A stretch of DNA of 64,000 nucleotides from the NCBI GenBank assembly GCA_033398695.1, contig CM065818.1, positions 54,344,001 through 54,408,000 of the forward strand, read 5' to 3'. Shown here in pieces: positions 7,140-33,410 of this stretch. The notes beneath the pieces are model-generated. The model had not been told where the DNA came from, searched no databases, and worked only from the letters and a program-made list of their open reading frames with translations. Source of the stretch: Orobanche coerulescens (Eukaryota > Streptophyta > Magnoliopsida > Lamiales > Orobanchaceae). The position numbers were made by a program, and so were the translations under genes. Within the stretch, counting starts at the first letter, position 1. Each line of letters starts with the position of its first letter.

Positions 7140-9487
7140 TGTAATACCACCGGTATTTCATGCTTAATTACCTTGTACTGTGTGAATTATTATAATGTGA
7201 TTTTGTTTTTTATTATTATTTATTTCATTAAATACTATACAATTGTGCAATGTGGATGAAACGGAGGTGATACGCCTTGACGCTGTTTGACAATCGTCGG
7301 TGCGAATATGACAGTGACCAACGCCTTGTTCCCCGAAAATTGTTGATGAGTGGGAAGGATGGTCACCCCGAGATGGTTAGAATGTGATATGTGGCTAAGG
7401 GATTGAATGTCTAACGCACGTTATAGTATATGCATAACGTACGCTAAATTTGAAGTATTATGTACGTTAATGTAACTCGGTTACGTACGCAATGGTTGAG
7501 TTGGTCTCCCGACCAGAATCTTCCTTTTGATGCGGATTGAGCTACTTTCGCTGGGCTAGAAGACAAACGAGTCAATCCCTTATAACGTACGCTATTCGCC
7601 AAGATTAGCGTACGCTGCGATTAGGTGCATTACGTATGTTATGACATCTTACATACGTAACATATGGGTGCAATTCAGTCAGTGGCCTCTGGACGGCCTT
7701 TACGTACGTTAACCATCGCACATAGCGTACGTATTAAACTTTACGTACGTAAATCCTAGAACTTTAACGTACGTTAACGAGATCGAGTGTTATAAAATAA
7801 CACTCCCACCTTCATTTCTCCCGACCCAAAACCTGAAGTGAAGCACTCTTGAAGTTTTTCCACCGCCTTATACTTGATTCTTGGACTCTCATACACTTGA
7901 ATTAACATAGAGGAGGTGATTTCATAAGCTCCGGTGAAGATATCCAAGTCATTCGATCCATTCCTCATTTATCCTCGTGGCTCTTGTTGATTTGTCATAT
8001 CTCTTCATTGTTCTTCATCTATTAAGGTAAGCCTATCAATCCTAGGAGTAATCTATTCAATGTTGTTGATTATTACTTGTTAGATTACGGGTACTTGGGT
8101 AGATTTTGCTAAATCTCGTAGACAATCTAAATGGATGAACTTGTAGTAATCGGGATTATCATTGTTCGTATATTTCGTTTTCATACTACTCGTTGTAACA
8201 ATCACATGCGAGAACTTCCATATCAATTTACATTGGGATTATATTAACTCGACGAATCAATTGTAAGATAATTTCGTAGGAATCCATCACCGTTTGATAA
8301 ACTAGTCGTAACCCACTCTTGCCACATGATTATCAACGTTAAAGTTAACTAGGGGAATTAATTCGATAATATTAATGTCATTGAGAATCAAACACCGTAA
8401 TTATTGTGTAAAATGGTAATCCACCGATTGAAGTACTCGGAATAGAGAATTGAATTACAAGTTATGGGATTCGATTATGCTATAGTCGTTTGTTGCTAAC
8501 CGAATGATGATTGGGATAATATTGTTGAACAAATCGATATACCTAGCGTTAACCGTAGAATTGAACGACATAGTGGTGCGTATTGCTTGTGAAATTAGAA
8601 GCACGATACTAGTGTTGGTAATTAAGACTATGTTAGGAACCCGGTTAGGGAAGGGAAGGTAAGGGAGACTAGTTCTATTCATCATGATCCGTACGAGGTG
8701 TTAATCGGATATTACGTGACTAGGTTAAGCTCGATCGGGCGTGGAGATCCCAGTTATCATAAGGCACCTACCGTCGGATCAAAGGCAAGTGAAATCTTGC
8801 TCGAGAAATGTTAATATTATTGAAATGTTTGTATTTATGAATGTGCCATTGTTGATGAATGCCGACGGTTGTCTTTCTCTAAGAATGTATTATAAATGGG
8901 CTGATATGTTGGGGATAAAACCTGTATGGTACCCGTATAGAAATTTGTTAGGGGATAAGACCCAAATTGGGCACCTACGTTCCGGGGTATTCCCGTGTGG
9001 ATACTTTCGTGACCATTGGTTGCGACCTTGGGGTTTATGTGATAAAAAGAAAAAGACAACGTCGGTCGTGTGGTCAAATATTTTCTATTGGTTATGTGGA
9101 ACTGTGTTTGGTAAAATTGTGTATATCGTTGCTAATAACTGTTATTGGTATACATTCTCTGACCCTGGTTACCTAGCATGAATTGTCGTGCCAGGTAAAT
9201 TTATTGATCATGTGCAGGACATTCCTGAGGGGTCCGGTCAGACTTGAACGGTGTTGGAATAAACTCTTTCCGCTGCATAAATTAAATTTGATCTTTAAAA
9301 CCTCTGTTATGTAATAATCGAACTTTGAATTATGTTTCTTCTAAAACTTTTCGACTCATGATATGTAACCGTGGACTTATCATTTTATTGCAATTTCTTT
9401 AAAATGTCTATTTCCTAAACTAGCCTTGTGGGTCCCACACGGGATTCACGGCACTGTAATACGTCGGGAGATTTTGGGGGTGTTACA
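7140..9487 (+). repeat. Complete 3' LTR of gypsy element 1 (2348 bp)
   Basis: Runs from TGTAATACCACC after the polypurine tract to GGGGGTGTTACA. It contains a cluster of ACGTACGT palindromes at 7412-7777, a candidate TATA box TATAAAATA at 7791, and a segment (8399-9487) that repeats the left LTR 1802-2930. After the end the sequence ACCCCATTACCGAATGATG resumes the LTR of element 2, which makes ACCCC the likely target site on this side. Confidence 0.8.
7412..7777. promoter_or_regulatory. Palindrome cluster TTACGTACGTAA, upstream of LTR TATA box
   Basis: About twelve sites of the form TTACGTACGTTA or close variants (for example 7435, 7481, 7582, 7606, 7699, 7740, 7764) in 366 bp. The last ends 14 bp before TATAAAATA at 7791. 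The spacing in front of a core promoter suggests binding sites for a host factor acting on LTR transcription. Function is inference; the repeats are seen directly. Confidence 0.7.
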
Positions 9488-10770
9488 ACCCCATTACCGA
9501 ATGATGTTCGTAATTCAAAGTTCTTTTAACTCGATTTAAAATGTTGGTCTTGATATAGACCACGATTCGTGTTTCTGAAAGTTTATTTCAACTTGTTTTA
9601 AATGTTGGTATCAGGGTTAATTAACCAAGGATATTTGACGAGATCTCCGAGGGTTAATAATCAAGGGTCTTGAGCAGGATTTGTCGAATGAGAGGTTGTG
9701 TCCTTGATTGTACTGTGATGATAGTCTGTGTATTGGGTCGAAGACCCCGTGAGATGTTGAGATCTTTGATCTTGTGGTGTTATTTTGTGTATTGGGTCGA
9801 GGACCCCGTGAGATGTTGAGATCTTTGATCTTGTGGTGTTATTCTTTGGATTGGGTCGGGAATCCTGTGAGATGTTGTAATAATTCGCTTGTGATAGTGT
9901 TCTATAAATTGGGTCGAGGACCCCGAATAATGTTGAAATGATTTTCTTATAAGATTGTTTTCCATATGCTGGGTCAAGGACCCGAGAGCTTTTGAAGTTA
10001 TTTTCCAAAAATATTCCCATTCGATTTTCAAAACCCCAAGACAGCCCGAGTCAATAATAACGTTTCCAGACTATCTTATCAAATATTTTTTTTAAAAAGG
10101 GATTTTTCAAACTAGATCTTTTGACTCATTGGGTTTGTTTAAAGTTTCATTGGTGTTATGATCTGTAAAGAGAATATAGCTATGTGATTATCTTTCACGT
10201 TGTTGTAAGCGAGTGTTTTTCTGTGTTGACTATGGGAACGCGTGGTTTGTGTAAAGGCTTCGCGGCTGTTGAGTTTTGTGTTGATATTATTCGTATATCT
10301 TGTATGATATGTACTTGCACTAGCAAAATTCTAGTTTGTTAACCCCCGAGTTTTCGGGGGGTGGGGGCCTGTTATGCGCTCCCGTTTTGGCAGCTCGGGA
10401 GCAGTCACAGGATTGGCTTGGAAGGAGATGGAAGGCGACGATGCTAATCACACAAGAGTCAGAGTCTTTTTCTTTTGTTTCATCTTGGTCGGTATTTTCT
10501 CTTTTGGTTGAGTATTCGCCCTTGCACGGGTGTAGTTTTCATTTATTAAATTGAGTCGTCATTCCTTTTCATGTTCAAGTTTATTATTGTCGTTGAGCTA
10601 TGAATTACGTTGGTTTTTGAATTGATGATTGACCTTATCGGTCTGTTTTGTAATTATATTGACCCCGGTCAGTCAATCATTGAGTAGTATATTGGAGCTT
10701 AGCCTGATAGATCCTTGTGAGAAGGGTCTACGGCATATGACATTCGCGATCGTATTCTGGGGGTGTTACA
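9488..10770 (+). repeat. Right piece of the 5' LTR of gypsy element 2
   Basis: Aligns with 14983-16266 almost throughout and ends in the same GTATTCTGGGGGTGTTACA. It is followed by a primer binding site at 10775, so it is a true LTR end. Inside are five tandem units of about 60 bp (9725-10000) built on ATTGGGTCGAGGACCCCG. Confidence 0.8.
9725..10000. repeat. 60-bp tandem repeats inside gypsy LTR
   Basis: Five units near 9731, 9790, 9849, 9908 and 9968 share TTGGGTCGAGGACCC then GAGATGTTGAGATCTTTGATC-like sequence with growing divergence. The same array occurs in the 3' LTR at about 15225-15485. Each unit contains the short inverted repeat GGGTCGAGGACCC. Confidence 0.8.
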
Positions 10771-10774
10771 GATA

Positions 10775-10786
10775 TGGTATCGGAGC
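10775..10786 (+). other. Primer binding site, tRNA-Met type
   Basis: TGGTATCGGAGC, four bases after the LTR end GTGTTACA. It differs by one base from the common TGGTATCAGAGC site. Confidence 0.85.
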
Positions 10787-11831
10787 TTAGGTTTGCGAAA
10801 AACCTAGGTCGTTGGGTCAAGTCCATGTCCTGTGTAAGTCGCGCGCATCAGAGTTGTGATTAGTATCTTGGTTCTGACATCATCTTCAGGCAATCCGTGA
10901 TGGTAAGTTCCTCGATCGTAAGTCCCCTTATATACGTATTTGATTATATCGTGCTAATGTATTTAATGTGAGCAAGGGTTGGAACTTGTTGGTGATACAA
11001 TTGTTTTAGGATAACATGCGCATATGGTCCGAGTGAAAATGGATATGTAGTATGCTTCGGAAGTCGAACATATTTATCGGTTTCTACATTTAGGTAGAAT
11101 AAATCTTTGAGTGTAATTTTATCCGCTGCATGAGTATTTTGAAATGGTTTTTGGTATCTTGAAAACTGAATTTGATTTCGTAAGAGCCAATTCCCTAAAC
11201 CGAGTTTTGGCATTTTGGTCTTGCATGTTTTGATGGTATTCTTATGACGGTATTTGATATTTTATAAATGTCAAAAGTGATTATTTGAAAATATTACCGT
11301 CATCGACCTTTTTGGCGTTTTGAACGTTTTTAAAAAAAATAGTTTTTAGCCTGGTGGGTTCCGGCGCGGGGCCCACGGCGCTGTATTATCGCGAACATTT
11401 TAAAGTGGTGCTTTGAAATTTTCTAACATTGTGAAAACCCATGATTTAATGTCGTCATGTCAAATGGTCACGTATCTCGGTGAAAAATCCTTTCGATTAA
11501 GCATTTTGGTAGAAGGGGAAAGATTTTCAAATTGTGGTATATGGAACTCGACACTTTTGAAATATTCAAATTAGTCACGATTCATAAAAGAATTTCTTTT
11601 ATACATTATTCGAAAATAATTTTTAAAGTCGATGTATAAACTTCCTCTTCTAAAATAAAGGACAGTATCTACAAGTTTTGGGCGTAATGTGACTCGCTCT
11701 CTTTTTCAAAAATTTGTTTTCATTAAGTGCATACATATAATGATCGTCCTCGTCGAAGGGCTCGAAATTGACTTCAGAAAACTTTGTGGTTTACGATATT
11801 GCCGTTATTCTAAAGATGTTAACTAAACCTT

Positions 11832-12281
11832 GTGGTATACTGTCCGACTGATTATTTAATAATGTCGAACGGTACTATCTGCATTAGCATGTCGAGCCTT
11901 GGCGGACGTAGGTGTGATGATGGAAGTGGAAGCGGCGAGGTGGTTCGTACGACAACTATCCATGCTACGGTGAAGGAGTATCAAGATCAAACTATATCCT
12001 ATGAAATCTCCGCAGTGATCGAGCCCACGAGCGAAGCAAAGAGACCAAGGACATCTGGAAAATTTCTGGCCGGTGAAGAGACTAAGGCTCCCAAACCCTC
12101 ACGTCATTCGAACGTGTCGTCTTTGCGGTCAGGAGTGAGCGCTAGAAATCCCAAACCAGCATCGGTGACTCTCGGTAAGAAGAGAAGGTGCTTCAACTGC
12201 AACCGTCAGGGACATGTCCGTGCAAATTGTCCCTTTCTACTCTTGACTTGTTACAGTGCAGGTGTGAATGTCATCGGGTGA
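11832..12281 (+). pseudogene. gag remnant with zinc knuckle, gypsy element 2
   Basis: An open stretch of 149 codons. The first part shows no match I recognise; a basic, Ser/Pro-rich section follows (EAKRPRTSGKF…KAPKPSRHSN), then one complete CCHC knuckle, CFNCNRQGHVRANC, near codons 121-134. The knuckle and the position after the tRNA-Met primer site identify it as the nucleocapsid end of gag. The gag core domain seen in the relative at 25558 is not visible here, so the gene has lost its N-terminal part or has diverged beyond recognition. Confidence 0.65.
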
Positions 12282-13324
12282 AACACTGTGAGATAGTTTC
12301 CGAATTGACAAAGAATGCTACCTTATTGGAAAACAGAGCAAGTGACCGAGGAGTGTCCCGAAACCTTATGTGTCCTTCTAAAGATCCTAGCAAATCAAGA
12401 TTTTGTACTATGTCTTAATCGTTGCTCTTTCCAACAATCGTGACTTTGATCGTTTTTCATTCATTGCTTTACATTTCCAACTCTTGTTGTTCTAAGTTTC
12501 GCGCTCGAAATGTCTTCTTAGTATGGGGGAATGTATTACCCATACTCTTCTTAGTATTTTCAGTGTTGGGTGACTTTCATTGTTGGTGATTCATTTGTAA
12601 TCCTCTCGACGATTTTAAACTAACTTGTTTTACTTAGCCTACCGTCCTCCGAACGAATTTTGGAGCTGTTTTGCTAAATCCCGTGGATTATTGTGGCCTT
12701 TCCACATCCGAATTTGATTCTTGCAAATTTTGTTTGAAACTATTGTTCCATCGCTCTCTATTTTAAGTTTCGGGACGAAACTTCTTTTAAGGAGGGTAGT
12801 ATGTAATACCCGTGATTTTATCTTTCGGTAATTTTTCGTTTTTCGCATTTTTTTGGTTTCCAGAAACTCGCTTGCGGGCGTTTTCACATTTTGATAATGT
12901 TTTGTTCTGCGTGTTTGGTCATCCGAATTTGTTCCGGGGCTGTTTTACCCGAATCCGTGTTTTGAGCGACTTTTTCCGCTCTTTGGTTCATTTCGTGTGA
13001 TGGTGGTTCGAAACTATGGTTACGTGTTTCCTATAAGTCCGTTGAGCTTTGTTATGCGTGTTGTGAGCTTCGGTCTGGTTGCTTGATGTCATATTGTGAT
13101 TTGTGGACGTTTTGGGCCGTTTCATAATTTCCCAAAGTTTGGGGGTTATTACTTCTGTTGTCGTATTCCGAACCTTCAGGTAGTCGGAATCGTATTTTCT
13201 TTTAACGCTTGTGTTCGTCGTTCTTCACTCCTCGTATCTATGTCCTCGTCTTGTGTTGTTGTTGTTTTCGTTTTGCAGTTTCGTCGACGAGCTGAACTTA
13301 GCAGTTTTGGAAGTTCTAAGTGAC

Positions 13325-13637
13325 TTACGTACGCTATGATATAAGCATAATGTACGTTATCATCATGTGCCTTACGTACGTTAAGCCCTTCACATTACGT
13401 ATGTAAGGGTCTTACCAGTTCAGACATTGAGTTCTGGCCGTCGGTAGCGCACGCTATGTGTTGGTCCTAACATGCGTTAACTGTGCGCATTACGTACGTT
13501 AAGTCCTTGATATAACGTACGTAATGGTCTTTGTTATTTCGGACAGGAGGTTCTGGTTATCGATTACGTACGTAATATTTCGTGCCTTACGTACGTTACC
13601 GATAACGTATGTTATCCTTCGTGTATAACGTACGTAA
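13325..13637. promoter_or_regulatory. Palindrome cluster TTACGTACGTAA in the LTR of gypsy element 2
   Basis: About twelve sites (13325, 13373, 13395, 13491, 13513, 13564, 13587, 13602, 13626 among them). The last ends about 15 bp before the TATA-like TTATATACC. Base sequence between the sites is unrelated to the cluster in the LTR at 7412-7777, so what is shared is the motif and its place. Confidence 0.7.
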
Positions 13638-14254
13638 TGCTGGCGCGAGTTTATATACCCAGGGGTTGACCATGTTCATCATTTTTCATCCTTCCTTCCT
13701 ACCTCCGCGGCTGTGGCGACTTGTGGCGATCGGAGGGCGATTTTGGAGTCTTGTAACTCCAAGTTTACATCTTCCTTGAGTTCATGGTGTTGATTAACAT
13801 CATCAATCCGTGTTCTTCATCTTCGATTCGAGGTAATCATCTTGTAAACCCTTCCTTTATATTTCGTGAATCTTCAAGATTCGGGTTGTTCTTCATGAAT
13901 TGTGCTGTTGTATATCATCAATCGGTTGTATTGATTCTCTCTCTATGATTTGATTCGTATCTCTTGTCGTATCCGGGTTCGGATGATGTTCTTGATGTTC
14001 TTGGGGAAATATTGAGCCCCAAGTGTTCGATCCTTTGTTTCTACGAATTCTTGTTGCGAATTTCATGTGTTTTGCATCTTCCTTGCGATCGACCTTATAG
14101 TGATTATGTTGTTCTTGTGTTTTCGACCTAGTTGGAATATTCGAGGGTTTCCGTTCGAGCTTTCCCGTTGCTTCGCGTGCTTTGTATTTGAGGCAAGTAC
14201 CTTGATATACGAATTATAACTACGTGAAATCATTGATGCCAAAGTGTGTGAATT

Positions 14255-14255
14255 A

Positions 14256-14318
<63 letters not shown>

Positions 14319-14384
14319 ATGTGTGTGTGTTATATATATGTATGTATAAAGATATATGCATGTGTATATATATATATATATGTA
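14255..14384. repeat. Compound microsatellite (CT)n(TA)n(GT)n
   Basis: CT from 14255, TA from about 14275, GT from about 14297, then TA again near 14366. Apparent short peptides across it are an effect of the repeat. Confidence 0.95.
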
Positions 14385-17300
14385 GGTATGTATGTACATA
14401 GATATATGTATTCATATGTCGGTGATTAACACCGATACTAGTTGACGTAATCAACTTGGATTAAAGTACGAACCATATTTATAGAGATAATATAGTAAGG
14501 TTTATATATTCGGTTGAGTTACAATATAAGGATATATGTGTAGCGTTGGTTGGTTTTGCTGAAGGCTTATTGTGTTAAGTCTTGATTGATAACGTGCGTG
14601 TTGTTGTTTATTTGTGTGGTCGTGGACTGGCGGATAAATTATGTGAATTGGTGTACTGATTTGATAATTGTTGCAACGATTGACTGTGTGCTTGATATTG
14701 TAACAATGTGAATACCTGTTGTGAGAAACGTCATATCCGGGAGCCTCTGAGGGCGGGGCATGTACTCCGGCCTGGTCTACACTGTAATGAGCGGCTCCAT
14801 ATGGTTGGTTAACGCCGATGTTACATAATGCGTGAGCAAGGGGCAGCTTTTGCGGCAGTGAGCGCCGACGCGGTGACATGTTCAATGGGCGGTCAACATA
14901 GTGGAGTGAACGCCGGTGCACAGGTGTGCAAGGGAGGTGCCTGGTAGGCTTATTGGTTACAGATATTCGAGTAACAGCTAAGACCCCGTTACCTAATGAT
15001 GTTTGTAATTCAAAGTTCTTTCAACTCGATTTAAAATGTTGGTCTTGATATAGACTGTGATTCGTGTTTCTGAAAGTTTATTTCAACTTATTTTAAACGT
15101 TGGTATCAGGGTTAATTAACCAAGGATATTTGACGAGATCTCCGAGGGTTAATTAATCAAGGGTCTTGAGCAGGATTTGTCGAATAAGAGGCTGTGTCCT
15201 TGATTGTACTGTGATGATATTCTGTGTATTGGGTCGAGGACCCCGTGAGATGTTGGGATCTTTGAGCTTGTGGTGTTATTCTGTGTATTGGGTCGAGGAC
15301 CCCGTGAGATGTTGAGATCTTTGATCTTATGGTGTTCTTCTTTGGATTGGGTCGAGAACCCTGTGAGATATTGTAATGATTCGCTTGTGACTGTGTTATA
15401 TAAAATAGGTCGAGGAACCCGAATAACGTTGAAATGATTTTCTTGTAAGATTGTTTTCCATATGTTGGGTCAAGGACTCGAGAGTTTTGAAGTTATTTTC
15501 CAAAAATATTCCCATTCGATTTTCAAAACCCCAAGACAGCCCGAGTCAATAATAACATTTCCAAACTATCTTATCAAATATTTTTTTTAAAAAATGTGTT
15601 TTTCAAACTAGATCTTTCGACTCATTGGGCTTGTTTAAAGTTTCATTGGTGTTATGATCTGTAAATAGAATATGGCTATGTGATTATCTTTCATCTTGTT
15701 GTAAGCAAGTGTTTTTCTGTGTTGACTATGGGAACGCATGGTTTGTGTAAAGGCTTCGCGGCTGTTGAATTTTGTGTTGATATTATTCGTATATCTTGTA
15801 TGATATGTACTTGCACTAGCAAAATTCCAATTTGCTAACCCCCGAGTTTTCGGAGGGTGGGTGCCTGTTATGCGCTCAGGTTTTGGCAGCTCGGGAGCAG
15901 TCACGGGATTGGCTTGGAAGGAGATGGAAGACGACGATGTTAATCACACAAGAGTTAGAGTCTTTTTCTTTTGTTCCATCTTGGTCGGTATTTTCTCATT
16001 TGGTTGAGTATTCGCCCTTGCACGGGTATAGTTTTCATTTATTAAATTGAGTCATCATTCCTTTTCAAGTTCATGTTTATTATTGTCGTTGAGTTGTGAA
16101 TTATGTTGGTTTTTTAATTGATGATTGACCTTATCGGTCTGTTTTGTAATTATATTGACCTTGGTCGGTCAATCATTGAGTAGTCTATTGGAGTTTAGCC
16201 TGGTAGATCCTTGTGAGAAGGGTCTACGGCATGTGATATTCCCGGTCGTATTCTGGGGGTGTTACAGGTAAACATATTCTTATATATGTTATATAAATTT
16301 TGTGTACTCGTATTGTGAAGTGGTAGCATTTATTTATTGGGAATGTTGTTGAAAAAATTATGTTATCTTTATTTGAATAATTTACAGGCTTGATTTGACA
16401 TTCCTTCTTCCCTGTTACACGCTTGGTGTGATAAGATGTAGGACACGAAGTAAGTAATGTTATTTATATGTGTTTGAGTTATTTACATGATCGAATAAAT
16501 AAATCTCAAACTTTTTGCTTTTGTGTCACTTGTATAGGTACAAGTCCTTGCAAAACGAGTTGCACCTATTTTGGGAGTCTTGGGTGGGCTTAAAATTCCC
16601 GAAGAGTTCAAGTACCAGGTATAAGAGTTGATGTGGCTGTTGTTTCATTTCGATAACCCGAACTATATAGTATAAGTATTAGAAATTACATTATTACTAA
16701 TATTATAGTATTGCATGTTCTGAATATGTTATTGTTATTGTCAAATACATTTTATACTCAATGCCGTGATTGTTTATTATTGATTTTACATGAAACATTT
16801 TGTAGTCCACTAGTAAGACCAACACGACCGCTTGTGGTCGTCTGGCCGAGCATCATAGTCTGGAATCGCGGTCGTTAGCATGCATTGCACATAAGGCTTC
16901 TACTTCTGATAAAGTGGACAATCAGTTTGTCTATGTGGATGAGAACGCATATCCGAGACGTGTGGAAGAACATGTAAGGGAAAATATAATTAATTACTGA
17001 AACTATTATTTTTTCCTTATAGCATCATGTCTTCTCTCTGACCTTTACCCATATCCGTTTGTTCATTTTTATTATAATTAGGCGAGGATCAGGATGGAGT
17101 CTTAGGATGTGTTGGCACAGATCATGAGGGAGAAGAATTTCGATTAGCCGAGACGGATCTCACTACAGCTATCGACCGGGTCTATCAGACAGATCCTTAT
17201 GTCAGAGTTAAGGTGTGGGGTACCCTTTACCCTCCTGAAGGGAGCCAATTTCGCACGCCGATGATGGTAAAAGAGGGTAATAGATTGTTGGAGGATGTAT

Positions 17301-17527
17301 CGGGCTTCCGACATCGTCGGGGCGACACGCAGAAGGCGAGGAACAATTGAAGATAGCAATGAGCTGTGACTTGAGTCATAAAGGTGGGCTGATGAGAATT
17401 TTGCTAAATTCTAGGAAGAGCAACAACAATTGATGGCTCAGAAACAACAAGCGATGGTGGCCCAGCACCAGTAGATGATGGATCAGCAGACGCATATGAT
17501 GTTAGTATATATGAACTCACTCAGCTC

Positions 17528-18693
17528 TGTTGGAGCAAAATTGGTCGGAATCGCCGTTTGGATATAGAGTTATAAAACTCTTTCGCGTTGCGGAAGCGAT
17601 TTAAATAAAGGTGCGGAAAATAAATCGACATAGGATTTATAGAGGTTCGGCCAAACGTGCCTACGTCCTCTCTCCGGATCTTTTTCTATAGGCTAAAGAT
17701 AATCCTCTGCACCCCTCTTCTATCAGTCGAGGGATAACCTTTACAAAACCATCTTCTATCGGTCCGAGTAAACCATTCAATCACTTGTCTTTTTGTCGGT
17801 CAAAGTTAAACCGTTTTCCTTTTCTATTGGATAAGGAATAAACCAATCCAGCTTTCTATGGGTACTAGATAAATCTTATGTGGATATCGATTGCGATTCT
17901 AACAATACCGGATCCTTGATCCTAATAACATCGAATCGAATCTTATACTTTCTTTTTCCTCTTGTATATGAGTTTTTGTGTATCATACCCAAACTCTTAT
18001 CAATATAAGCACAATTACAACAACAATAGAATGTATATCAATATCTGATCAATGTATCGATTGCTTGAAGTTGTTGTGTCTTCAATGCCATAGGAAGTGG
18101 TATTTATAGACTCCAAAGCCTCAACTAGCCATTAGCTCACTGCTGCCTCATTATGTATGTTATACAACTTCCTTTACGTACGTTAAGCCATTTACGTACG
18201 TTAGATCACACCTGTTACGTACGTTATGTATACTGCAAATCATTCCAGTAGCTTCTGTCTTTTGTGTTACGTATGTTATCAAATCTCCCATTACGTATGT
18301 TAACAATAGTCAAAATATCTATTGGTGTGATGATGTAAGCCATGACGTCACAACGGTCATATAGTTTGAATTCTGATTCAAACTCTTCATTACGTACGTT
18401 AGCCGTCCTGCATTACGTACGTTAAACTCCTTAGATTACGTAGGTTAAGCTCTCTCCATAGCGTACGTTAATATCATCAGGTAACTTTTACTTCAGCTGA
18501 CTTTTACTTCATGGCTGATCAGGTAGCATTCCTCTCATCTGATCAGGTAGCGTTCCTCTCTGATCTGATCAGGTAACATTTGCCCAGCTTAAATGACTTA
18601 AATGTTTTGTTTTGCTTCCTTGTTGTTTTTCTTTGTTTAACAACTAATCATCAAAACTCGATTAATGAATATTTAGAATAAAATATTCCAACA
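17528..18693 (-). mobile_element. Solo Ty1/copia LTR (1166 bp)
   Basis: Bounded by TGTTGG at 17528 and CCAACA ending at 18693, with flanks AGCTC and AACTC (one mismatch from a 5-bp target duplication). Read on the - strand it has the usual copia 3' features (CGCTTCCGC-type motif near 17600) and a TATA box at 18102-18109, so the LTR faces left. A palindrome cluster lies upstream of that TATA box. No internal region is present, so it arose by recombination between two LTRs. It splits the TNPA-like gene. Confidence 0.8.
18151..18470. promoter_or_regulatory. Palindrome cluster TTACGTACGTTA in a copia LTR
   Basis: About ten sites (TTACGTACGTTAA near 18174, TTTACGTACGTTA near 18190, TTACGTACGTTAT near 18214, TTACGTATGTTA near 18267 and 18291, further copies near 18391, 18414, 18437 and 18458). 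In the - orientation of this LTR they lie upstream of the TATA box at 18102-18109. The LTR is of another superfamily than the gypsy LTRs with the same motif. Confidence 0.7.
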
Positions 18694-19510: not shown

Positions 19511-19753
19511 TCGGGTAAAGTGTATTATTCTGCGAATATTTAACAATCGATTTTTTTTAGCATCCAAACAAAAGTGGTGGAGAAAGGGGATTTTCTTGCA
19601 ATTAAAAATAGATATATTGTTTTGCACTTCACCTTCTTAGATTTAGTACCACTTTTGTTTTCGAATAGATATCAATTTTATTTTTCGAAACAAAACTGTA
19701 ATCATAAATAATTTTGTAATTATATCATGAATAATTATTAAAAATAATATTAT

Positions 19754-21436: not shown

Positions 21437-21937
21437 ATGGTCATGACTTCTACATTTTACTTGGCCCCGTTTGATGGAAAATCGGATTTTCAAATATGGC
21501 ACCAAAAATTGAAAAGTATTTTAATACAACAAAAAGTTTTTAAAGTCATTGATCTAAGTTTTGCCGCTGATACTTCGGCCGATAAAAAGGCTGAATTGGA
21601 TGAGTTTGCTTACTCGTCTATTATCTTGAACTTGTCTGATTCTGTGATAAGAAAAGTTGGTAAACAAAATTCGGCTAAGGAACTTTGGAAAAAGTTGGAA
21701 GAATTATATGTTGAAACCTCTTTGCCAAATAAGCTATTTTTGCTTGAAAAATACTCCCGTTTTAAACTTGATTTGAATAAAAGTCTTGATGAAAATCTTG
21801 ATGTGCTTACCAAGTTAGTTCAAGATATTAAAAATTCCGGTAATAAACATATTGATGATTACTCTGCTATTGTAATTTTAAACGCTAATCCTGAGTCCTA
21901 TGGTGATGTTAAATCTGCTATTAAGTATGGTAGAGAT
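21437..21937 (+). pseudogene. copia gag, N-terminal part, broken by gypsy insertion
   Basis: ATG at 21437 opens a frame with the copia-type gag pattern: YLAPFDGKSDFQIWHQKLKS, then AKELWKKLEELYVE, LFLLEKYSRFKLD and IVILNANPESYGDVKSAI. The gypsy element 21938-29679 enters after the codon region for KYGRD and the rest lies at 29680-29990. Upstream codons from 21380 also read open, but the family pattern starts at about the second Met. The frame has no internal stop up to the insertion. The protein would form the particle that packages element RNA. Confidence 0.85.
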
Positions 21938-22489
21938 TGTAATGTCTGCAATTTCGATTTCCGGTAGTTTTCTTATTTTTTTGAGAAAGTCCATCTTAGC
22001 GACTCTGTTGTGACCATTTCGTCATTCCGAGAATGATTAATTATGCATTTTTGTCATCCGAGTTCATTTTGGTGTCGTTTTGTTGAGTTCCATGTTCTTA
22101 AGCGGTTTTTCCGCACTTGAGTTTGATTCTTGCAAATCTCGTCTGAAACTGTTGTTTCGAGTTTCTTGTAAGTTCATTTAATGTTATTATTCATGTTGCG
22201 AGCTTTGGCTTAGTGTTTCGATCGTGTATTGTGTATTTCGGACGTTTTGGGCCATTTTCGTAATTTCCTAAAGTTTGGGGTAATTACTTCCGTTGTCGAA
22301 TTTCGAGCCTTCGGGTGGTCGGAATCGTGTGTTCTCTTAGTGCTTAGATTCGTCTTTGCGAGTACTTTGTAATCGTGTCTTCGGTTTATATCCAGGTTTG
22401 GGTTTCGGGGTTGTTCAGATTGTCGGGGTTGGCCACGGTCGAGTCATGGCCGTACGTGTTGGGGCAATGGCACACCTGGCCGAGTTACG

Positions 22490-22612
22490 GCTGTAATGGT
22501 CCGGAAGTTACGGCCGTAAGGCCTGTTACGTACGTAACCCCTGGTCGGTAACGTACGTGATGCTGCCGGCAGTTTTGGGCAGCAGGGTCGTGATGGCCGG
22601 TTACGGCCGTAA
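22490..22612. promoter_or_regulatory. Palindromes TTACGGCCGTAA and TTACGTACGTAA in the 5' LTR of gypsy element 3
   Basis: TTACGGCCGTAA near 22515 and 22600, TTACGTACGTAA near 22527 and TAACGTACGTGA near 22549, all upstream of CTATTTAAGG at 22631. The half-site TTACG is shared with the other clusters; the two central bases vary (TA or GC). The same stretch of the 3' LTR (27485-27672) is decayed. Confidence 0.6.
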
Positions 22613-23159
22613 GCGCTCGGCAGGGACCGGCTATTTAAGGCCTGGGCACCGGGTCATTCGGCCATTTCCACATTTTTCTTCATTTTTCGCGATCCTTCGA
22701 CAGAAATTGAGGGTTTTGATCGGGAGCATCTTATAACAACATCTTTTGGAAGGCTTGTGTTGATTATAACAACATATAATCCTTGTTGTTCGTCGGATAG
22801 GGGTACTTTCTTGAAATCTCCTAGGATTGACTTCCGAGATTTCCTTCTTGATTTTCATTGTTCGTCCGATTTTGATGAATATGTTTGTTTGATTGTTTGA
22901 TATGAACTTTCAAAAGATCCGGTTTAGCCTCGTTAAGGGCTCACTTTCAAAACGCAATGTGTTTTATAAATGTGGGGTCTCGTGAATGGTTAAGTGAACC
23001 CTATGAATATGCTTGGTGTTGTTGTGCTTTGATGATGTATATGTACATATATTATCTCATTCTGGGGTGTTGTGATTTGACACTTGTGTTGTGCTATGTG
23101 TTTATTGCCTTTGGTTGAGTTGTTCGGATATCCTTGGCGTGCTATGTTATTTGTGTGAA

Positions 23160-23530
23160 TGTGTGGATATGATCGAAGGTCTAAGGTGACACATGGCATG
23201 TGACCATTTGGTCAGGATGCAACAAGTGATTGATCCAACCGTGAGAGCCTAAGACAAGACCTGCGGTGACATGTGGCATGTGATCATATGGTCAGGAGAC
23301 AACAAGTGATTGATCCAACCGTGAGATGGCGTGGCATGTGTTCACGATGTTATGTATTTGTATTTTACTCACCTCGGGAGGGTCCTGCGAGGCCTCGAGG
23401 GAATCCAATGGTATAGCCCTGGATTGATGAATCGGTGTGTATATGATTTGTGAATGTATTTTGCTCACCTCGGGAGGGTCCTGCGAGGCCTCGAGGGAAT
23501 CCAATGGTATAGCCCTGGATTCATGAGTTG
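23160..23530. repeat. Two tandem pairs of about 100 bp inside the gypsy element 3 LTR
   Basis: The first pair shares GTGACATGTGGCATGTGA and CAACAAGTGATTGATCCAA; the second pair shares CTCACCTCGGGAGGGTCCTG with GAGGCCTCGAGGGAATCCAA. Both pairs recur in the 3' LTR at about 28535-28890. Confidence 0.85.
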
Positions 23531-25557
23531 GTGTTGTATTCGTTGACCAAGAGTTGCGTATCTTGGGTGATTATGTTGTGTCGGTTTTTATATCCGTCGA
23601 GGACACGTGACGTGGGCTTTGACCCAGTGAACTGTTGCTGGTTTTCTATTTGCGAAAACAAAAACCTTCGGGTTGTGACCCCTGTAGATTTTGAAAAGAG
23701 AAGGATCTGATAATCCTAAATTGTTTTCTATTAAAACTCCTGATGGATTATTAAACCATTTTGTAAATTGTTTCTCTTGAATTGTGATCTTTTGATTTTG
23801 GAATGTTTTACCCAAACTCTTGCTTCGGGAAGTATTCTTCGTTGTGTTTGAATCTTTGAGGATTCCTGATTATTGTTATTCTTGGAACTTGAATTGTATG
23901 ACTCGTATTTTGCACTTTGTGCTTGCACTAGCAAAATAGTGGAATTTTGCTAACTCCCGAGTAATCGGGGAGTGGATGTCTGTTTTGCATTCAGGTTTTG
24001 GGGAACATAGCACAGGGTCTGTATGAAGGGTGATGAAATATGATCGATACTAATCATATGAGGACCCATCTATTGTTGTATTGGTTCAGTTGTACGTTAT
24101 TTCCGCTGCAATATTTTCCCCGTTGTACAGGAGTATTTTGTATTTGACCCTTTGGGATTGAGTTGTACGTATTTATTGATAGACCAAATCGGTCTACTGA
24201 GTCATTTCAGCCTGAAATGCATTGTTGAGATGTTCGATGTTGTTACCATCCTGGTAGATCCTTGAGGAAAGGTTCTACGGCGTGTAATATCCCTGAGCGG
24301 ATTGGGGGTGTTACAAAAATGGTATCGTAGCCAGGTTGTGGAAACCTAGGCTGTGGGGTTTAGTGGTGTCTGTTGAGTTTTTGTCTCGTCGGATTTTATC
24401 TGATTGAGTCGTGTTGCGACGCGTCGTCTGAGCTGGTTGGTCGTGATTAGTATCGTGGGGCGATCATCACCTTCGTGCGACCTGTGGATGTAAGTCTCCC
24501 TTCTTTGTGTTGTGCCTCGTGTGACACGAGCTACTGGTATGATTATGTATTAAGTGATGGAATCTTTATGCAGATTCTCAATTTCGTGATGCGTTTATGT
24601 AACTCTCATATTTCGTTTATATGAGGAGTGTTGTCGTTATTTATGTCCTTTTGAATATGATATTTGACTATTTGTTTCCGGTAAAAGACAGGTGTTGTCT
24701 TAGTTTTAAACGAGTTGATGCGTGTATTATGATTGTATGTAGGTGAATGTCGATACGTGTGAGTTTTGGGCACTCTGGCCCATTGGATTTTTGGAAACTT
24801 TGAGTATCTTAGAAAATAAAATTCGAGACGTACTTTTAAATGGATTATATTTTCGAGGCGCCTACTAGCGCAACTATCTATTTCAAAATCCTTCTACTTT
24901 GAGGACCAAAATATTTTTTTTTGATATTCCAGTAATTTTGGAAATGCATTTGCTTAGACCCAAGGGTCGAATATTTCTGAAAGTTTCAATTTAAAGGAAA
25001 AGTGCCCACATTTTTATCAAATTCAAGATGGTTTTTCAAGGTCTCGCTAGTGATGTTTGTACTACTTTTTGAAAGGTGATACTCAACATCAACCGGTGTT
25101 TCTAAATTATTTTCAAAAAAGTGGTTTTCGTTTTTAAAACCTATCATTCTTGTTTACGGCCTGGGAGTGTGTATATGATATTCGCATTGTCGTTAGAATG
25201 TTAGCTCCCGAGTATGATGGAATTGGTGGCGTGAACGTTGAGTCGTTTGCCACGCATTTGTTGTGATTAGCCCTCAGTGAGAGGTGAGATGTTGGTATTG
25301 AATGTTGTCGCTTTGTGGTGACTTGTGTGTTATCGCACCCGTGCGAGCTATTAGAACTTGAGTTTGTATGATTATGTACATACGTGGTTGTTTCATGATG
25401 TTTAGTAATTGTATGCTAGTTATCGTTCGGGGCGTTGAGGTCGCCGAACGATGCCGTCGTTGCAGTGGTGTTTGTATGTGTGTTGCTTTACGATGGTAAT
25501 CATTGTAAGTGTTTCGTGTTATGATTTTCTGTTATGCTGAGTGGTTATTTATTCAGT

Positions 25558-26589: not shown

Positions 26590-26979
26590 TGTGGTTTTTG
26601 AAAATTTCGGCGTAGTCCGAATTGTTTGTGATTGCCCTTGTGAATTGTTTGTGTTTACTTTCTGTTTTATCGACTATGCGTGTTTCCTTGTAATAGGTGC
26701 TTTATGTTTTGTGATTGTTCGGATAATCGACTTGATTGTATTATCTATTTGATGACGCTCGTCACTTGTTGGTTTTATTATGTCTCTACCGGTGGCGTTG
26801 TGTTGGTCGTCGTGGAGCGTGTTTTCACGCTGTATGTTCCTTTGCGTTGCTTGTAATGTTTCGCCGTTGGGCGTAAGTTACGCGTTTGTTGTGTATCTTA
26901 TTGAGTTTTTCCGGCGGGATATTGCTTCCCCCTACTTGTTTTAAATTTCGGGACGAAACTTCTTTTAAGGAGGGTAGTA

Positions 26980-29679
26980 TGTAATATCCGCAATTTCGAT
27001 TTCCGGTAATTTTCTTTTTTTTTCGAAGTCCATCTTAGCGACTCTGTTGTGATCATTTCATCATTCCGAGAATGATTAATTCTGCACTTTTTGTCATCCG
27101 AGTTCGTTTTGGTGTCGTTTGTTGAGTTCTGTGTTCTTAAGCGGCTTTTCCGCACTTGACTTCGATTCTTGCGAATATCATCCGAAACTGTTATTTCGAG
27201 TTTCTTGTAAGTTCATTTAATGTTATTATTCATGTTGCGAGCTTTGGCTTAGTGTTTCGATCGTGTATTGTGTATTTCGTGACGTTTTGGGCCGTTTTCG
27301 TAATTTCTCGAAGTTTGGGGTAATTACTTTCGTTGTCGAATTTCGAGCCTTCGGGTGGTCGGAATCGTGTGTTCTCTTAGTACTTATATTCATCTTTGTG
27401 AGTACTTTGTAACCGTGTCTTCGGTTTATATTCGGGTTTGGGTTTCGGGGTTGTTCGGACTGTCGAGGTTGGCCACGGCCGAGTCATGGCCGTACGTGTT
27501 GGGGCAATGGCACACCTGGACGAGTTATGGCCGTAATGGTCCGTGATTATGGCACATTACGTCGTAATACCCGGCCGTGCGTGCACGTAAGCTGCCAGCG
27601 ATTTTAGGCGGCGAGTCGAGATGGCCGATTACGACCGTAAGCCATAGCCGGTTACAGCCTTAAGCGCTTGGCAGGGACCGGCTATTTAAGGCCTGGGCAC
27701 CAGGTCACTCGGCCATTTCCACATTTTTCTTCATTTTTCGTGATCCTTCGACAGAAATTGAGGGTTTTGATCGGGAGCATCTTAGAACAACATCTTTTGG
27801 AAGGCTTGTGTTGATTATAACAACATCTAATCCTTGTTCTTCGTCGGATCGAGATAATTTCTTGAAATCTCTTAGGATTGACTTTCGAGATTTCCTTCTT
27901 GATTTTCATTGTTCGTCCGATTTTGATGAATCGTTTGATGTTATTGGGCATTAGTAGGCATGTTCTACGGATTGTATATCCGTATTTCGAGTTCGTTAGA
28001 ACCCAATTGGGAATTTTGGTGTTCTAAGGAAACCTTGAATGTGTTTTCCGTTGTTTTCAATTGTTATTCTCATAGTAATCGTGTTTCCGTTGGATTTCAC
28101 GGAGGATTGTAGGTATTCGGGGTTTTCCAGGTTGTATTGTGTCCGCCGGAGTATTCGCGTGTTGATTCGAGCAAGTACCTTGTCCATACATCTCTTGTTT
28201 CGTGGATATGATGATTGGTGATTGTCTTGGTATGTTTGTTTGATTGTTTGAGATGAACTTTCAAAATATCCGGTTTAGCCTCGTTAAGGGCTCACTTTCA
28301 AAATGCGTGTGTTTTGTGAATGTTGTGTCTCGTGAATGGTTAAGTGAACCCTATGAATATGTTTGGTGTTGTTGATGTGCTTTGATAATGTATATGTACA
28401 TATATTATCTCATTCCGGGGTGTTGTGATTTGACACTTGTGTTGTGCTATGTGTTTATTGCCTTTGGTTGAGTTGTTCGGATATCCTTGGCATGCTATGT
28501 TATTTGTGTGAAAGTGTAGATATGGTCGAAGGTCTGCGGTGACACATGGCATGTGACCATGTGGTCAGGATGCAATAAGTGATTGATCCAACCGTGAGAG
28601 CCTAAGACAAGACCTGCGGTGACATGTGGCATGTGATCATATGGTCAGGAGACAACAAGTGATTGATCCAACCGTGAGATGGCGTGGCATGTGTTTACGG
28701 TATTATGTATTTGTATTTTACTCACCTCGGGAGGGTCCTGCGAGGCCTCGAGGGAATCCAATGGTATATCCCTCGATTCATGAGTCGGTGTGTATATGAT
28801 TTGTGAATGTATTTTACTCACCTCGGGAGGGTCCTGCGAGGCCTCGAGGGAATCAAATGGTATAGCCCTGGATTCATGAGTTGGTGTTGTATTCGTTGAC
28901 CAAGAGTTGCGTATCTTGGATGATTATGTTGTGTCGATTTTTATATCCGTCGAGGACACGTGACGTGGGCTTTGACCCTGTGAACTGTTGCTGGTTTTCT
29001 ATTTGCAAAAACAAAAACCTTTGGGTTGTGACCCCTGTTGATTTTGAAAAGAGAAGGATCCGATAATCCTAAATTGTTTCTATTAAAACTCCTGATGGCT
29101 TATTAAACCATTTTGTAAATTGTTTCTCTTGAATTGTGATCTTTCGATTTTGGAATATTTTACCCGAACTCTTGCTTCGGGAAGTATTCTTCGTTGTGTT
29201 TGAATATTTGAGGATTCCTGATTATTGTTATTCTTAGAACTTGAATTGTATGACTCGTATTTTGCACTTCGTACTTGCACTAGCAAAATAGTGGAATTTT
29301 GCTAACCCCCGAGTAATCGGGGGTGGATGTCTGTTTTGCATTCAGGTTTTGGGGAGCATAGCACAGGGTCGGCATGAAGGGTGATGAAAGATGATCGATA
29401 CTAATCACATGAGGACCCGTGTATTGCTGTATTGGTTCAGTTGTACGTTATTTCCGCTGCAATATTTTTCCCGTTGTACAGGAATATTTTGTATTTGACC
29501 CTGCGTGGGTATTTATTGGGATTGAGTTGTACGTATTTATTGAAAGACCAAATCGGTCTACTGAGTCATTTCAGCCTTAAAGGCATTGTTGAGATGTTCG
29601 ATGTTCTTACCAGCCTGGTAGATCCTTGAGGAAAGGTTCTACAGCGTGTAATATCCCTGAGCGGATTGGGGGTGTTACA
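26980..29679 (+). repeat. 3' LTR of gypsy element 3 (2700 bp)
   Basis: Matches the 5' LTR but keeps an extra 300 bp (27932-28231) and has eroded versions of the palindromes near 27550-27670 (TTACGTCGTAA, TTACGACCGTAA). Candidate TATA CTATTTAAGG at 27682. Confidence 0.9.
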
Positions 29680-29990
29680 GAGATAACATATCTTTAGATA
29701 TTGTTGTGTCCGGACTAAAGAGTAAGGAATTAGACTTAAAAAACAATGTGAGTAATAATTTGAATTTCGAATCAGTTTCGATGGTTAGGAATAAAATTTC
29801 TATGACTATTTCACTAAGAAGGATGGTCAAAATTCTAATTTTCGACAGAACTCACGGAATTGCTATAGTTGTGGTAAAAAGGGTCATATTGCTAGTAATT
29901 GTCCTTAGAGGAACAAAAAAGATAAAAATCAAACTGATGATAAAGCTAACCTAGTTGCATCAGATATCAATCTTAGTGATGTGTATTAGT
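29680..29990 (+). pseudogene. copia gag, C-terminal part with zinc knuckle
   Basis: After the GAGAT duplication the copia gag frame resumes. It contains the complete knuckle CYSCGKKGHIASNC near 29868-29909, then a TAG and a charged tail (NKKDKNQTDDKANLVASDINL) ending at a stop near 29988. Different parts read best in different frames, so small indels are present. No protease follows, which fits a non-autonomous element. Confidence 0.75.
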
Positions 29991-30594
29991 TGACTTTTAT
30001 GGTTCTTCAGTCCTTAGTGGGCTTTGGTCGTCTTTGTGACTTTGTATGATTTATGTGTCTGTGTGACTTATGTGAATTATTCGTGGTTCTAATCCTTTGT
30101 GGATGTAGGTAGTATAATCTTTGTGATAATGTTTTCCATGAACTTTGTGTTCTGTGACATTTCTATGATGGCTGCGGTGTTGTGGTTCGGTCGACCAAAC
30201 TTTTTTGTGTTTTTACAGCTTTCATGTGTTGGCGGTTTTGAGTAAACCTCCGCTCCATTTTCAGGTGGAGCAACATGCTTAGTGCTTTGCGTTTGAGGTG
30301 GAGTGGTGTCCCCTCAGATCTATGTGTTGCTTATATCGTTCATTTCCCTTAATACGTTTGTATTTTTTGAATATTATGGTATTTGTGTGTTTTGTGCAAT
30401 TTTAGCTTATTGCTAAAATATTTGTTGTGCTAACTGTGTGTTTTTAGGGGATATCTTTGTGAGCTAGTCTTCTTTGTGAATACTTTACCTTATCTACTGT
30501 GTGTGAGTGCAGGTAACCCCAGAGTTAGGCAATGATGAGTTTTCTCCAAAACCCGAAAATGCAATTTGACTGGTTGGTCCAAAAAGGTGGAGAA
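29991..30594 (+). other. Noncoding 3' internal region and polypurine tract of the copia element
   Basis: About 600 bp of T/G-rich DNA without long reading frames where pol would be expected. It ends in AAAAAGGTGGAGAA (30581-30594) immediately before TGTTATAATTTTGG, the 3' LTR start. Confidence 0.75.
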
Positions 30595-30797
30595 TGTTAT
30601 AATTTTGGCCCAACCCGGGCCATCTAACATTTAATTAATCCATCCCAAACCCGGCCAATATCCCTTGGCAGCCCTCCTAATAGGAGCCGTCCGATCGAGA
30701 TATCTACACCTAATCTCGACCGTCCGAGTACTTCTTATATATACCCTAACCCTACCTCACTCCCTCATTCTCACCGCCTCCCTTCTCTCCTGTCTTC

Positions 30798-33410
30798 TGT
30801 AATATCCGACGGAATTCTTACTTGCTGTTGTACTATTCGGATAATTTAATACTGTTGTAATCTTGTTGCATTTGTGAAATGAATATTGATGTTGGAATAT
30901 ATCATAATAGACTTGAATAAAATGATCACTCGCATTATGTTTGAAATTTCAGTGTTGTAGAGATAAGTGCATATTGAACTATTAAAAACCTGAGCCTAAC
31001 GTACGTTAATCGTAAGTCATAGCGTACGCTATTTTGAGGCCTTTACGTACGTAAAGGGGTACCACGTGACGTAACGGGCAATCGTATCCGATCTCAACTT
31101 TCGGCGTGTGGGGCGGTGGGATTCGAATATCTGATTTTGGAGCCAACCTAGTTGACCCACATTACGTGCGTAATGCTTCTAGCGTAACGTCGTAATGAAG
31201 TTCGTATTTGATCCGGTAACCTCGAACTTAGCTTACGACGTAACACTTGTTGTGTAGCGTACGTAACTAATCTTTATTATAAAAAGACAGTTTGTGTCTT
31301 TCATTTTGCACGTCCAACCTCCGATTTTCACCCATATAATCATCCCCCTTCATCCCTAGAGCAAGTTTACCTTCTTCCTACTTGTGTTGGAGCTTTACAT
31401 TTTGATTTTGGAGCTTGCTGATTGGAACTTGGAGACATTCTTGAAGCTTATATTGTGTTCTTGTGGTTTGGTGTATTGTTCTCCATTTACGAAGGTATGT
31501 TCTACGATTTAACCCTATAATCTCGAATTTAATATGATAGTGATTAAGTATATTTCACCTAGTGATGAATTAATCAAAATAAACATGTTGTAGTTAAGCT
31601 TTCAACAACTTAATGATGAACATGATGATTAGAGGGTTTGTAATGGTGTGTTCTTGGTGTTTTAATATGGTAATGATCATGTTTAGTTTAACCACACTCT
31701 CCTTGCTAGACTTATAACACCATTGGTATAATAATAATCCTTATTCCATTGTAATGTAAATGACTTATTGGAATAATTACCATAAATGTTTTAAGAAACC
31801 TTGTTGATCATTAGAAGAATGAAATAATCTTCTTGAACCTAGGCTAAGTGAATTCAGAGGTGTGTTGTGTGAATCCCCAAGTCAGTTGGAAGAGTATAAG
31901 AGTGGTGCTAAACTTGAGATAGTCTTCATAACCATGATATGGATTTACAACTAATTAACTCAACATAAGTAATTGTATGTAGTGCGATTTTACTTTTAAT
32001 CATTTGAGATGTTCTTGATAAGATTAAAGGATAGGAGATTATTGTTTAAAACATTATGGAATGATTCTTAATCCAACAAACATTTGGTATCATCTTGTAA
32101 TCAATTGTGAGAATTGAATGGTATGAATAAGGTTCTTGAAGTAACACTTTAGAAGTTAAACTACTCAATCGGAAATTAAGATGTTATCTCGCGAACATTC
32201 GGTGTAGATGATCATATAAACGTATTAATGATCAAAATATACTTCATTCAAGGTTGATTGTTCGAGTACACAATATTAGTTGAGGACCGTTCGTTCGTTC
32301 CGACAAGAAGAGGACTATTCGCGTCTCCGTATTGAGGCAAGTTATCTTGCTTGGTTATAATGATGTGTGGATTCTTATGATGATTATGCATTTCGTGTAT
32401 ATGAAACACTTATAAACTTGTGTCTTGTGATTTGATGTTGCTCTTAATGATGTCCCGTTTTCATCGTGGGATTGTATTCCCAAGTTCGTTACTTTTGGAC
32501 CCTTGATATTGTTGATCTTGTTGTCATCTCGGTGAGTCCTCGATCCTTATTCGGATTTTGTGAAATTCTTGAATTCGTTGTCATGTTGCATCGTGACATA
32601 TCCGGAGTCATATCTACGTTCCGATTGGATATTGTGTAGGATTTTTAGCCGGGCACATATATAGTCATGCGTGAATATTTTCCGTGAAAGGTTGTGCACA
32701 CGAGACGTAGTTCGTTGAGGCTAATTAGGTACATTGTCCCACGTATATCCTGGATTCCGTATACGGGGTGGACATGTGCACTGACACATATTCGGATCGG
32801 GCGTACTGTGATGTCCCTCTTGAGCCGTACTATCTTAGTCGCTCACAGTCCATTTTTATACGTGGATGTGTTCGACGTTTTGTGACTGAGCGTTCATACG
32901 CCCGAGGGGTATGTACGTTAGTCGGGGCGTTATTCTTGAAATCTTATATGCGTGAATTGTATACTATCTTGAGAATCATTTATCATGTATATCTGACCCT
33001 GTGTTGGGCGAAATACTTGTGTTGTATTTTAGGTCGAGGAAAAGGCAAGGCACGGGAAGATCAAGGTGATGACGAAGGGTTCGAAGGATACTAGTTCGGG
33101 GGCCCCAAGTCTTTCGTGTCCGGTCATGTTCGTACCGTGTAATGTTATTTTCCACTTCATTTTAAGTTTGAACAAATGTATTGTTATTTAAGGTATAATT
33201 CATCTCCATATGGATTATACTTATGCTTTGGATCCTGTGTGTAATAAGGCCGTAGGCCATACTGCTGTAAACTCCACATCGGAGTAAGTACTATGTTTTG
33301 TGGTTCGGTATCACATGTATTGTGTATTTAATCTTTACTTTGGATATCGCCTGGTGGATCCCAGTGTGGGGTCCACGGCACTGTAATGGCCACCTTATCG
33401 GGGTGTTACA
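30798..33410 (+). mobile_element. Solo Ty3/gypsy LTR (2613 bp) in the copia 3' LTR
   Basis: TGTAATATCCGACGG…GGGGTGTTACA, flanked by TCTTC (30793-30797 and 33411-33415). Near its end it has GTCCACGGCACTGTAATGG, as do the LTRs of element 1 (near 2890 and 9448), so it belongs to the same gypsy group. Palindromes at 30997-31267 precede TATAAAAAG at 31278. Open stretches at 32694-33094 have no recognisable domain and are not called as genes. Confidence 0.9.
30997..31267. promoter_or_regulatory. Palindrome cluster in the solo gypsy LTR
   Basis: TAACGTACGTTAA (30997), TAGCGTACGCTA (31020), TTTACGTACGTAAA (31042), TTACGTGCGTAA (31162), the shortened TAACGTCGTAA (31185) and TTACGACGTAA (31233), and TAGCGTACGTAAC (31255). 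The last ends 11 bp before TATAAAAAG. Confidence 0.7.

Follow-up and report, generated by a model that had tools for sequence, protein, structure and literature searches.

Palindrome arrays with a preferred 23-bp spacing upstream of TATA-like boxes in gypsy-type and copia-like long terminal repeats of Orobanche coerulescens: a candidate cis-regulatory module

In a 64,000-nucleotide window of the Orobanche coerulescens genome (contig CM065818.1 of assembly GCA_033398695.1, positions 54,344,001 to 54,408,000, forward strand) a CpG-bearing 12-bp palindrome is repeated in six short arrays, each of them inside a long terminal repeat (LTR) of a retrotransposon. The sites follow each other at a preferred distance of 23 bp, and in all five of the arrays checked, out of the six, a TATA-like box lies 8-42 bases downstream of the last site. 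The interpretation we favour, with a confidence somewhat above even, is that these clusters are cis-regulatory arrays for a cooperatively binding dimeric protein. A preliminary description of this stretch, made from the sequence alone, had reported the clusters; points beyond that description are the preferred distance of 23 bp, the 11-bp variants of the site and one more array, the sixth, which has decayed and lies in the 3' LTR partner (27525-27663). The arrays, their boxes and the LTRs that carry them are listed in Table 1.

Using the half-site TWRCG mirrored by CGYWA across 1-2 bp, TWRCG-N(1-2)-CGYWA, as the definition of the motif, we found 33 pairs in the window, all 33 of them inside the six arrays, 30 with a 2-bp and three with a 1-bp centre. 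When centres of 0-8 bp were scanned, no pair with a centre of 0, 3, 4, 5 or 8 bp occurred across the window; a 6-bp centre was seen once, where sites overlap in array E, and a 7-bp centre once, outside the arrays. The arrays hold 88 of the 272 half-sites of the window, the sites' own halves counted, against 7.1 expected by length. TTACGNNCGTAA was matched eight times against 0.11 expected from dinucleotide shuffles, and TACGTACGTA, at up to one mismatch, 20 times against 1.32. With a total length of 1,535 bp of the 64,000 (2.4%), the arrays contain 24 of 24 exact copies of TWRCGTACGYWA and 39 of the 40 copies with at most one mismatch, the sole outsider being a lone site at 51390. These figures bear out the clusters first reported. 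The earlier site counts (about 12, 12, 10, fewer and 7) agree with the 12, 12, 10, 5 and 5 twelve-base sites, plus two 11-bp forms, obtained here, and the statement that the LTR at 1-1339 and the Tat LTRs do not carry the motif holds at up to one mismatch, copia and Tat being the labels of that description. The lone site at 51390 reads TTACGTACATTA and stands about 130 bp ahead of a repeat that begins near 51525 and has a copy at 62398.

Among the 88 halves of the 44 twelve-base sites, TTACG is the most frequent form (35), followed by TAACG (25) and TAGCG (11), the remaining 17 being of other forms. A TA centre, giving CGTACG, is present in 37 sites, a GC centre in three, CA in two and TG in two; the GC-centred sites, two CGGCCG and one CGGCTG, are all in D, and the three 11-bp variants lie at 31185 and 31233 in array E and at 27557 in D2. 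Nearly all variants preserve a TWRCG half-site opposed to its own mirror image at a distance of 1-2 bp. SBP-type and bZIP-type factors had been named earlier as candidate readers of the GTAC and ACGT cores, and neither is favoured as the sole reader, since both cores are dispensable among the variants. Most sites have GTAC, yet it is lost in the three GC-centred D sites and in the three 11-bp sites (E, D2), which does not fit a pure SBP site. A pure bZIP site would have ACGT at the dyad; here the dyad falls on GTAC or GGCC, with ACGT off-centre, lost in the CGGCCG sites and missing from TTACGGCCGTAA. A NAC protein was considered as well and is not favoured, its consensus being a misfit to the CGTTA and CGCTA half-sites.

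The spacing was determined on the 44 twelve-base sites, the 11-bp sites, all score-9 windows and the D2 array being excluded. The 39 start-to-start gaps between neighbours are 22-24 bp long in 25 cases, 50-52 bp in five, 16-19 bp in five and larger in four. Compared with sites placed at random in the same span, the P value did not exceed 1e-4 in arrays A, B and C and was 0.044 in D and 0.007 in E; because the site positions were set after the lists had been viewed, these values are not fully blind, and the 16-19 and 50-52 bp classes were noticed post hoc. Ten exact doublets were observed against 0.00 expected. The 11-bp sites of array E conform to the same distance, with 31185 located 23 bp after 31162 and 31233 located 22 bp before 31255. 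A score-10 window at 31034 in array E was left out of the 44 sites; its inclusion changes the gaps of that array to 23, 14, 9, 119 and 93. A further palindrome, TGACGTCA at 18343-18350, is located within the 99-bp gap of array C.

Two sites of the same array are mismatched at about 2.2-2.3 of their 12 positions (around 81% identity), whereas the spacers are at about the random level (27-30%). In the 11-bp flanks of the sites the identity is 0.295-0.298 for neighbours 23 bp apart, 0.271-0.287 for the remaining pairs within an array and 0.271-0.272 for sites from different arrays. With corresponding gaps aligned, spacer homology was undetected in five of six array pairs (E-A gave P 0.032), in agreement with the earlier claim that spacer DNA is unrelated between clusters. 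As the site and the length of the spacer are kept and the letters of the spacer are not, we infer that selection acts on the site and the spacing; a tandem-duplication origin followed by constraint would give the same pattern.

Table 1. Positions of the arrays, the TATA-like boxes and the retrotransposon parts that carry them.
Feature	Positions	Strand	Details
Array A	7412-7776	+	12 palindromes; gaps 23, 23, 23, 102, 23, 24, 19, 51, 23, 18, 24
TATAAAA after array A	7791-7797	+	starts 14 bases past last A site
Array B	13325-13637	+	12 palindromes; gaps 23, 24, 23, 50, 23, 22, 23, 51, 23, 16, 23
TATATA after array B	13652-13657	+	starts 14 bases past last B site
Array C	18151-18470	-	10 palindromes; LTR-sense gaps 23, 23, 23, 99, 24, 52, 23, 18, 23
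TATAAA after array C	18103-18108	-	42 bases past last C site, LTR sense
Array D1	22485-22612	+	5 palindromes, three GC-centred; gaps 23, 18, 23, 52
TATTTAA after array D1	22632	+	19 bases past last D1 site
Array D2	27525-27663	+	decayed, rearranged counterpart of D1; 11-bp site at 27557; two tandem 23-bp copies near 27621-27666 (alignment)
Array E	30997-31266	+	12-bp palindromes at 30997, 31020, 31043, 31162, 31255 (gaps 23, 23, 119, 93); 11-bp forms at 31185, 31233
TATTATAAAA after array E	31275	+	TATA-like box starting at 31275-31278, 8-11 bases past last E site
Element 1, internal region	2931-7139	+	protease, integrase zinc-binding; below cut-off: integrase core, chromodomain-like C terminus; frames broken
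3' LTR of gypsy element 1	7140-9487	+	termini TGTAATACCA...GGTGTTACA, polypurine tract; holds array A
3' LTR of gypsy-type element 2	12802-16266	+	holds array B
Solo LTR C	17528-18693	-	TGTTGGA...TCCAACA copia-like termini; flanks AGCTC/AACTC; no internal region
5' LTR of gypsy-type element D	21938-24315	+	GAGAT on both sides of element D; holds D1
3' LTR of element D	26980-29679	+	holds decayed D2
Solo gypsy-type LTR E	30798-33410	+	target-site duplication TCTTC; holds array E

The arrays start 199-547 bp into their LTRs. The TATA-like boxes that had been noted shortly after the last site in three gypsy LTRs were recovered at distances of 14, 14 and 8-11 bases, and D1 and C have one as well. 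Among the array carriers, protein domains were read in element 1, where protease and integrase zinc-binding domains score above the Pfam cut-off, the integrase core (rve) falls below it (29 vs 32.6 bits) and the C-terminal tail gives a Chromo match at E 5e-5 that, with 23.5 bits, is also below its cut-off of 25.1. The 5' LTR of this element is truncated, the part that would carry the array being absent, and the element appears to sit inside the 5' LTR of element 2. The LTRs of element 1, element 2, D and E begin with TGTAAT and end with GGTGTTACA, termini like those of gypsy chromoviruses of the Tekay/Del type; by these termini and by partial LTR similarity the carriers of B, D and E are classified as probably gypsy-type. 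Since the four families share their termini, a single ancestral array may have given rise to theirs, and these termini, together with an identity of 71% between LTRs B and D directly upstream of the array, make convergence among the gypsy-type LTRs unnecessary. Termini of the TGTTGGA/TCCAACA type are typical of copia elements; LTR C, whose target-site duplication agrees at four of five bases, is copia-like by its termini alone, an unproven assignment. Of the earlier view that the motif spans gypsy and copia, the gypsy-type carriers are thus retained and the copia class of LTR C is plausible on its termini. The accompanying proposal, convergent recruitment of a host factor site, stands as regards the site for a single trans-acting factor, which is the best reading, and convergence is required only for LTR C.

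The mechanism that we propose is that the arrays would form the U3 enhancer that governs the LTR promoters from upstream, each palindrome being the docking site of a symmetric protein dimer. At the preferred distance of 23 bp neighbouring dimers may touch and bind cooperatively, and an array of 5-12 sites could then switch the adjoining TATA promoter; activation rather than repression is what the position of the arrays suggests. Among the gypsy-type LTRs the arrays would probably derive from one ancestral array with fast turnover, and the copia-like LTR would have acquired its own separately, through convergence or transfer. A bolder version, to which we give appreciably less than even credence, holds that one dimeric plant protein, cooperative at palindromes spaced by 23 bp, controls gypsy and copia LTR promoters in the same genome, the cis-code having been reached independently or the array handed from one superfamily to the other, with no constraint on the letters of the spacers. 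The palindrome, being different from that of Sireviruses, common to several gypsy-type families and a copia-like LTR and strictly spaced, would make the factor accessible to DNA-affinity isolation. It would likewise allow one to ask whether LTR promoters of different superfamilies are shaped by regulators of the host, and whether the same region is read by the silencing machinery.

In A, B, C and E the observed/expected CpG ratio is 1.68-2.05 and clearly exceeds that of either flank, the value of the window being 1.06. GC centres apart, 12 of the 20 departures from TWRCGTACGYWA are C-to-T or G-to-A changes at CpGs, a spectrum that resembles the decay of methylated CpGs. The earlier suggestion that these CpGs are methylation targets receives indirect rather than direct support from the two LTRs of element D, which differ at 48 of 260 positions in CpG context against 96 of 2,099 elsewhere.

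Several observations weigh against the cis-regulatory interpretation. Any statement on generality draws on one 64-kb window with at most five LTR families, and a distance of 23 bp does not correspond to an integral number of helical turns. Colinearity of whole arrays across families (a 4+2+4 layout) was tried in 20 tests and discarded, being mostly no better than with permuted gaps; the lowest P values were 0.043 (B-E chain) and 0.050 (A-B rigid), with 0.09-0.24 for C against A or B and 0.44-0.87 for C against E. What the arrays have in common is gap sizes and not one layout. In D1 and D2 the CpG ratio (1.36 and 1.59) does not exceed that of the preceding 300 bp (1.46 and 1.62). The two LTRs of one insertion are presumably identical when it inserts, and those of element D remain 90-100% identical in 22 of 24 windows of 100 bases; the two array windows are only 88% and 73% identical, with 33 gap columns. 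The base differences are concentrated at 22438-22637 against 27484-27676, which is the array, and a 23-bp unit present once in D1 is doubled in D2; the gaps outside the array are one of about 300 columns near 22838-22937 and one of 13 columns near 24138-24237. Judging from this alignment, the D array is under strong mutation or conversion pressure, and slippage, deamination or conversion from another copy may each account for the concentration of changes.

This local turnover bears on an alternative that we consider unlikely, namely that the arrays are a minisatellite-like by-product without binding function, in which a 23-bp unit was multiplied by slippage or unequal exchange in an ancestral LTR and spread by recombination or gene conversion. 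The extra 23-bp copy in D2 and the clustering of base differences in that array are what it would produce, the identity of LTRs B and D upstream of the array is in line with a common source, and Tandem Repeats Finder reports periods of 24 and 39 in array B and of 23 in array C. Drift, however, is expected to erode sites and spacers equally, and the spacers of neighbouring sites (0.298, 0.295) are hardly more alike than those of different arrays (0.271, 0.272) though the sites are alike; spacer homology between arrays, as described above, is mostly undetected. Rather less probable still is that the arrays represent a hairpin-forming region that feeds small-RNA silencing in the way suggested for maize Sireviruses, the palindromes being present, or noticed by the host, as RNA structure. 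Maize small RNAs reportedly map in excess to Sirevirus palindrome clusters (PMC10760457), and the array RNAs fold more stably than dinucleotide shuffles, with z values of -3.53 (A), -3.67 (B), -4.59 (D), -2.49 (E) and -1.35 (C). When the sites were held fixed and the spacers shuffled, the controls folded equally well or better in A, B and C (z +0.95, +0.73 and +0.35) and about equally in E (z -0.60, 31 of 100 as low), and only in D did the native array fold more stably than the controls, of which 2 in 100 reached so low a value. When the sites were shuffled instead, the added stability was lost in A, B, D and E (z -5.28, -4.72, -5.10 and -3.05) and not in C (-0.27).

In four of the five arrays, then, the ability to form hairpins follows mainly from the palindromy of the sites, a result in favour of a protein dimer site. 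In the same direction, by mean mismatch counts alone, the sites appear closer to self-complementarity (2.14) than to complementarity with the neighbour 23 bp away (2.48) or with the remaining sites of the array (2.70), and nine of the ten sites of array C have the form TAA......TAA in LTR sense, so that their second bases are unable to pair between sites. The least probable reading, which we regard as very doubtful, makes the arrays the targets, in trans, of an element-encoded anti-silencing or transcription factor similar to VANC. VANC target motifs are reported to be short, dense and non-coding and to turn over fast by tandem repeats (PMC5735166, PMC10398659), somewhat like D1 against D2. 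No stop-to-stop open reading frame (ORF) of at least 220 amino acids was found between 6,676 and 50,362, shorter or spliced genes not having been searched for. In addition, the palindrome is common to different families whereas VANC targets are family-specific, and VANC motifs are arrayed in one orientation, "palindrome" not being a term in the main text of PMC5735166.

The known system nearest to these arrays, in the literature that we drew on, is that of the repeated motifs (RM) of Sireviruses, whose similar placement speaks for the cis-regulatory interpretation. In Bousios et al. (2010; PMC2829016), palindromic RM are described in 13 Sireviruses, with a CGG-CCG core in 12 of the 13, in 3-14 copies per 3' LTR (their Table 3) and at least eight per element overall; 92% lie in the upper half of the LTR, beginning 200-400 bp into it, in CpG islands whose end is a short way upstream of a TATA box, and the copies are strongly conserved in otherwise divergent LTRs. 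RM were reported absent from classic (other copia) elements, and the regulatory function of the clusters was left to experiment. The arrays described here are similar in having a repeated CpG-bearing palindrome (12-bp copies in the LTRs of A-E: 12, 12, 10, 5 and 5) and in their position in the LTR and upstream of the box. As to a CpG-rich patch, the ratio in A, B, C and E rises above both flanks, and that in D1 and D2 does not rise above the upstream flank. Unlike RM, the sites are built from TWRCG with a TA centre in most cases and do not carry the CGG-CCG signature; one palindrome serves several families, whereas the RM consensus is mostly element-specific; and the carriers are gypsy-type LTRs and one copia-like LTR, element 1 having a protease, an integrase and a sub-cut-off chromodomain-like tail. 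The 23-bp spacing rule has no counterpart in the text of PMC2829016 used here. New with respect to RM, on that text, are another palindrome, other carriers and the spacing rule.

Maize Ty3 elements, according to PMC10760457, are generally without an obvious structure peak, while four of the five array-bearing families here are gypsy-type. The VANC target arrays of VANDAL elements (PMC5735166, PMC10398659) resemble those of this window in being dense short motifs in non-coding DNA with repeat-driven turnover, density being of importance, and differ in consisting of oriented, family-specific 9-mers. Among the literature matches listed, by titles and the beginnings of abstracts, none ties this palindrome to retrotransposons. 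VANDAL elements, for their part, are DNA transposons. A 2016 study is said to have described a palindrome cluster with hairpin potential in an LTR control region as a hotspot of sequence evolution, which the divergence of D1 and D2 resembles.

Scans of sequence collections returned six viral contigs, only one of which was examined further, and four contigs of spirochaete metagenome-assembled genomes (MAGs), one of them titled goat rumen. The viral contig (L003, IMGVR_UViG_3300033463_001428) has at 5761-5931 eight TTACGTACGTAA-like sites, 22-23 bp apart and with unlike spacers, which directly precede a small ORF with sub-threshold RHH/CopG matches; an ORF similar to a terminase large subunit is also present. 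The spirochaete contigs contain tandem 22-bp repeats on the same palindrome (L007:500-555, L008:293-392, L009:1684-1783 and L010:981-1036). These arrays are alike in repeating TTACGTACGTAA at 22-23 bp and unlike in belonging to unrelated organisms and, in the spirochaetes, in being tandem repeats with like spacers.

Other features of the window include a MYB gene fragment that shares 86% identity over 88% of the query with an Orobanche minor protein, among the best 120 of 3,382 matches; six of the top nine carry names of Orobanchaceae, which puts the host probably within or close to this family. At 36129-36504 and 43030-43455 there are tandem repeats of 62-67 bp, alike on the two strands, on an inverted repeat, TTTAGCCGACGACC...GGTCGTCGGCTAAA. 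The tract at 55108-56627 holds a 50-bp unit repeated in tandem about 30 times and lies between ORFs, of which one (57047-57823, minus strand) has integrase domains.

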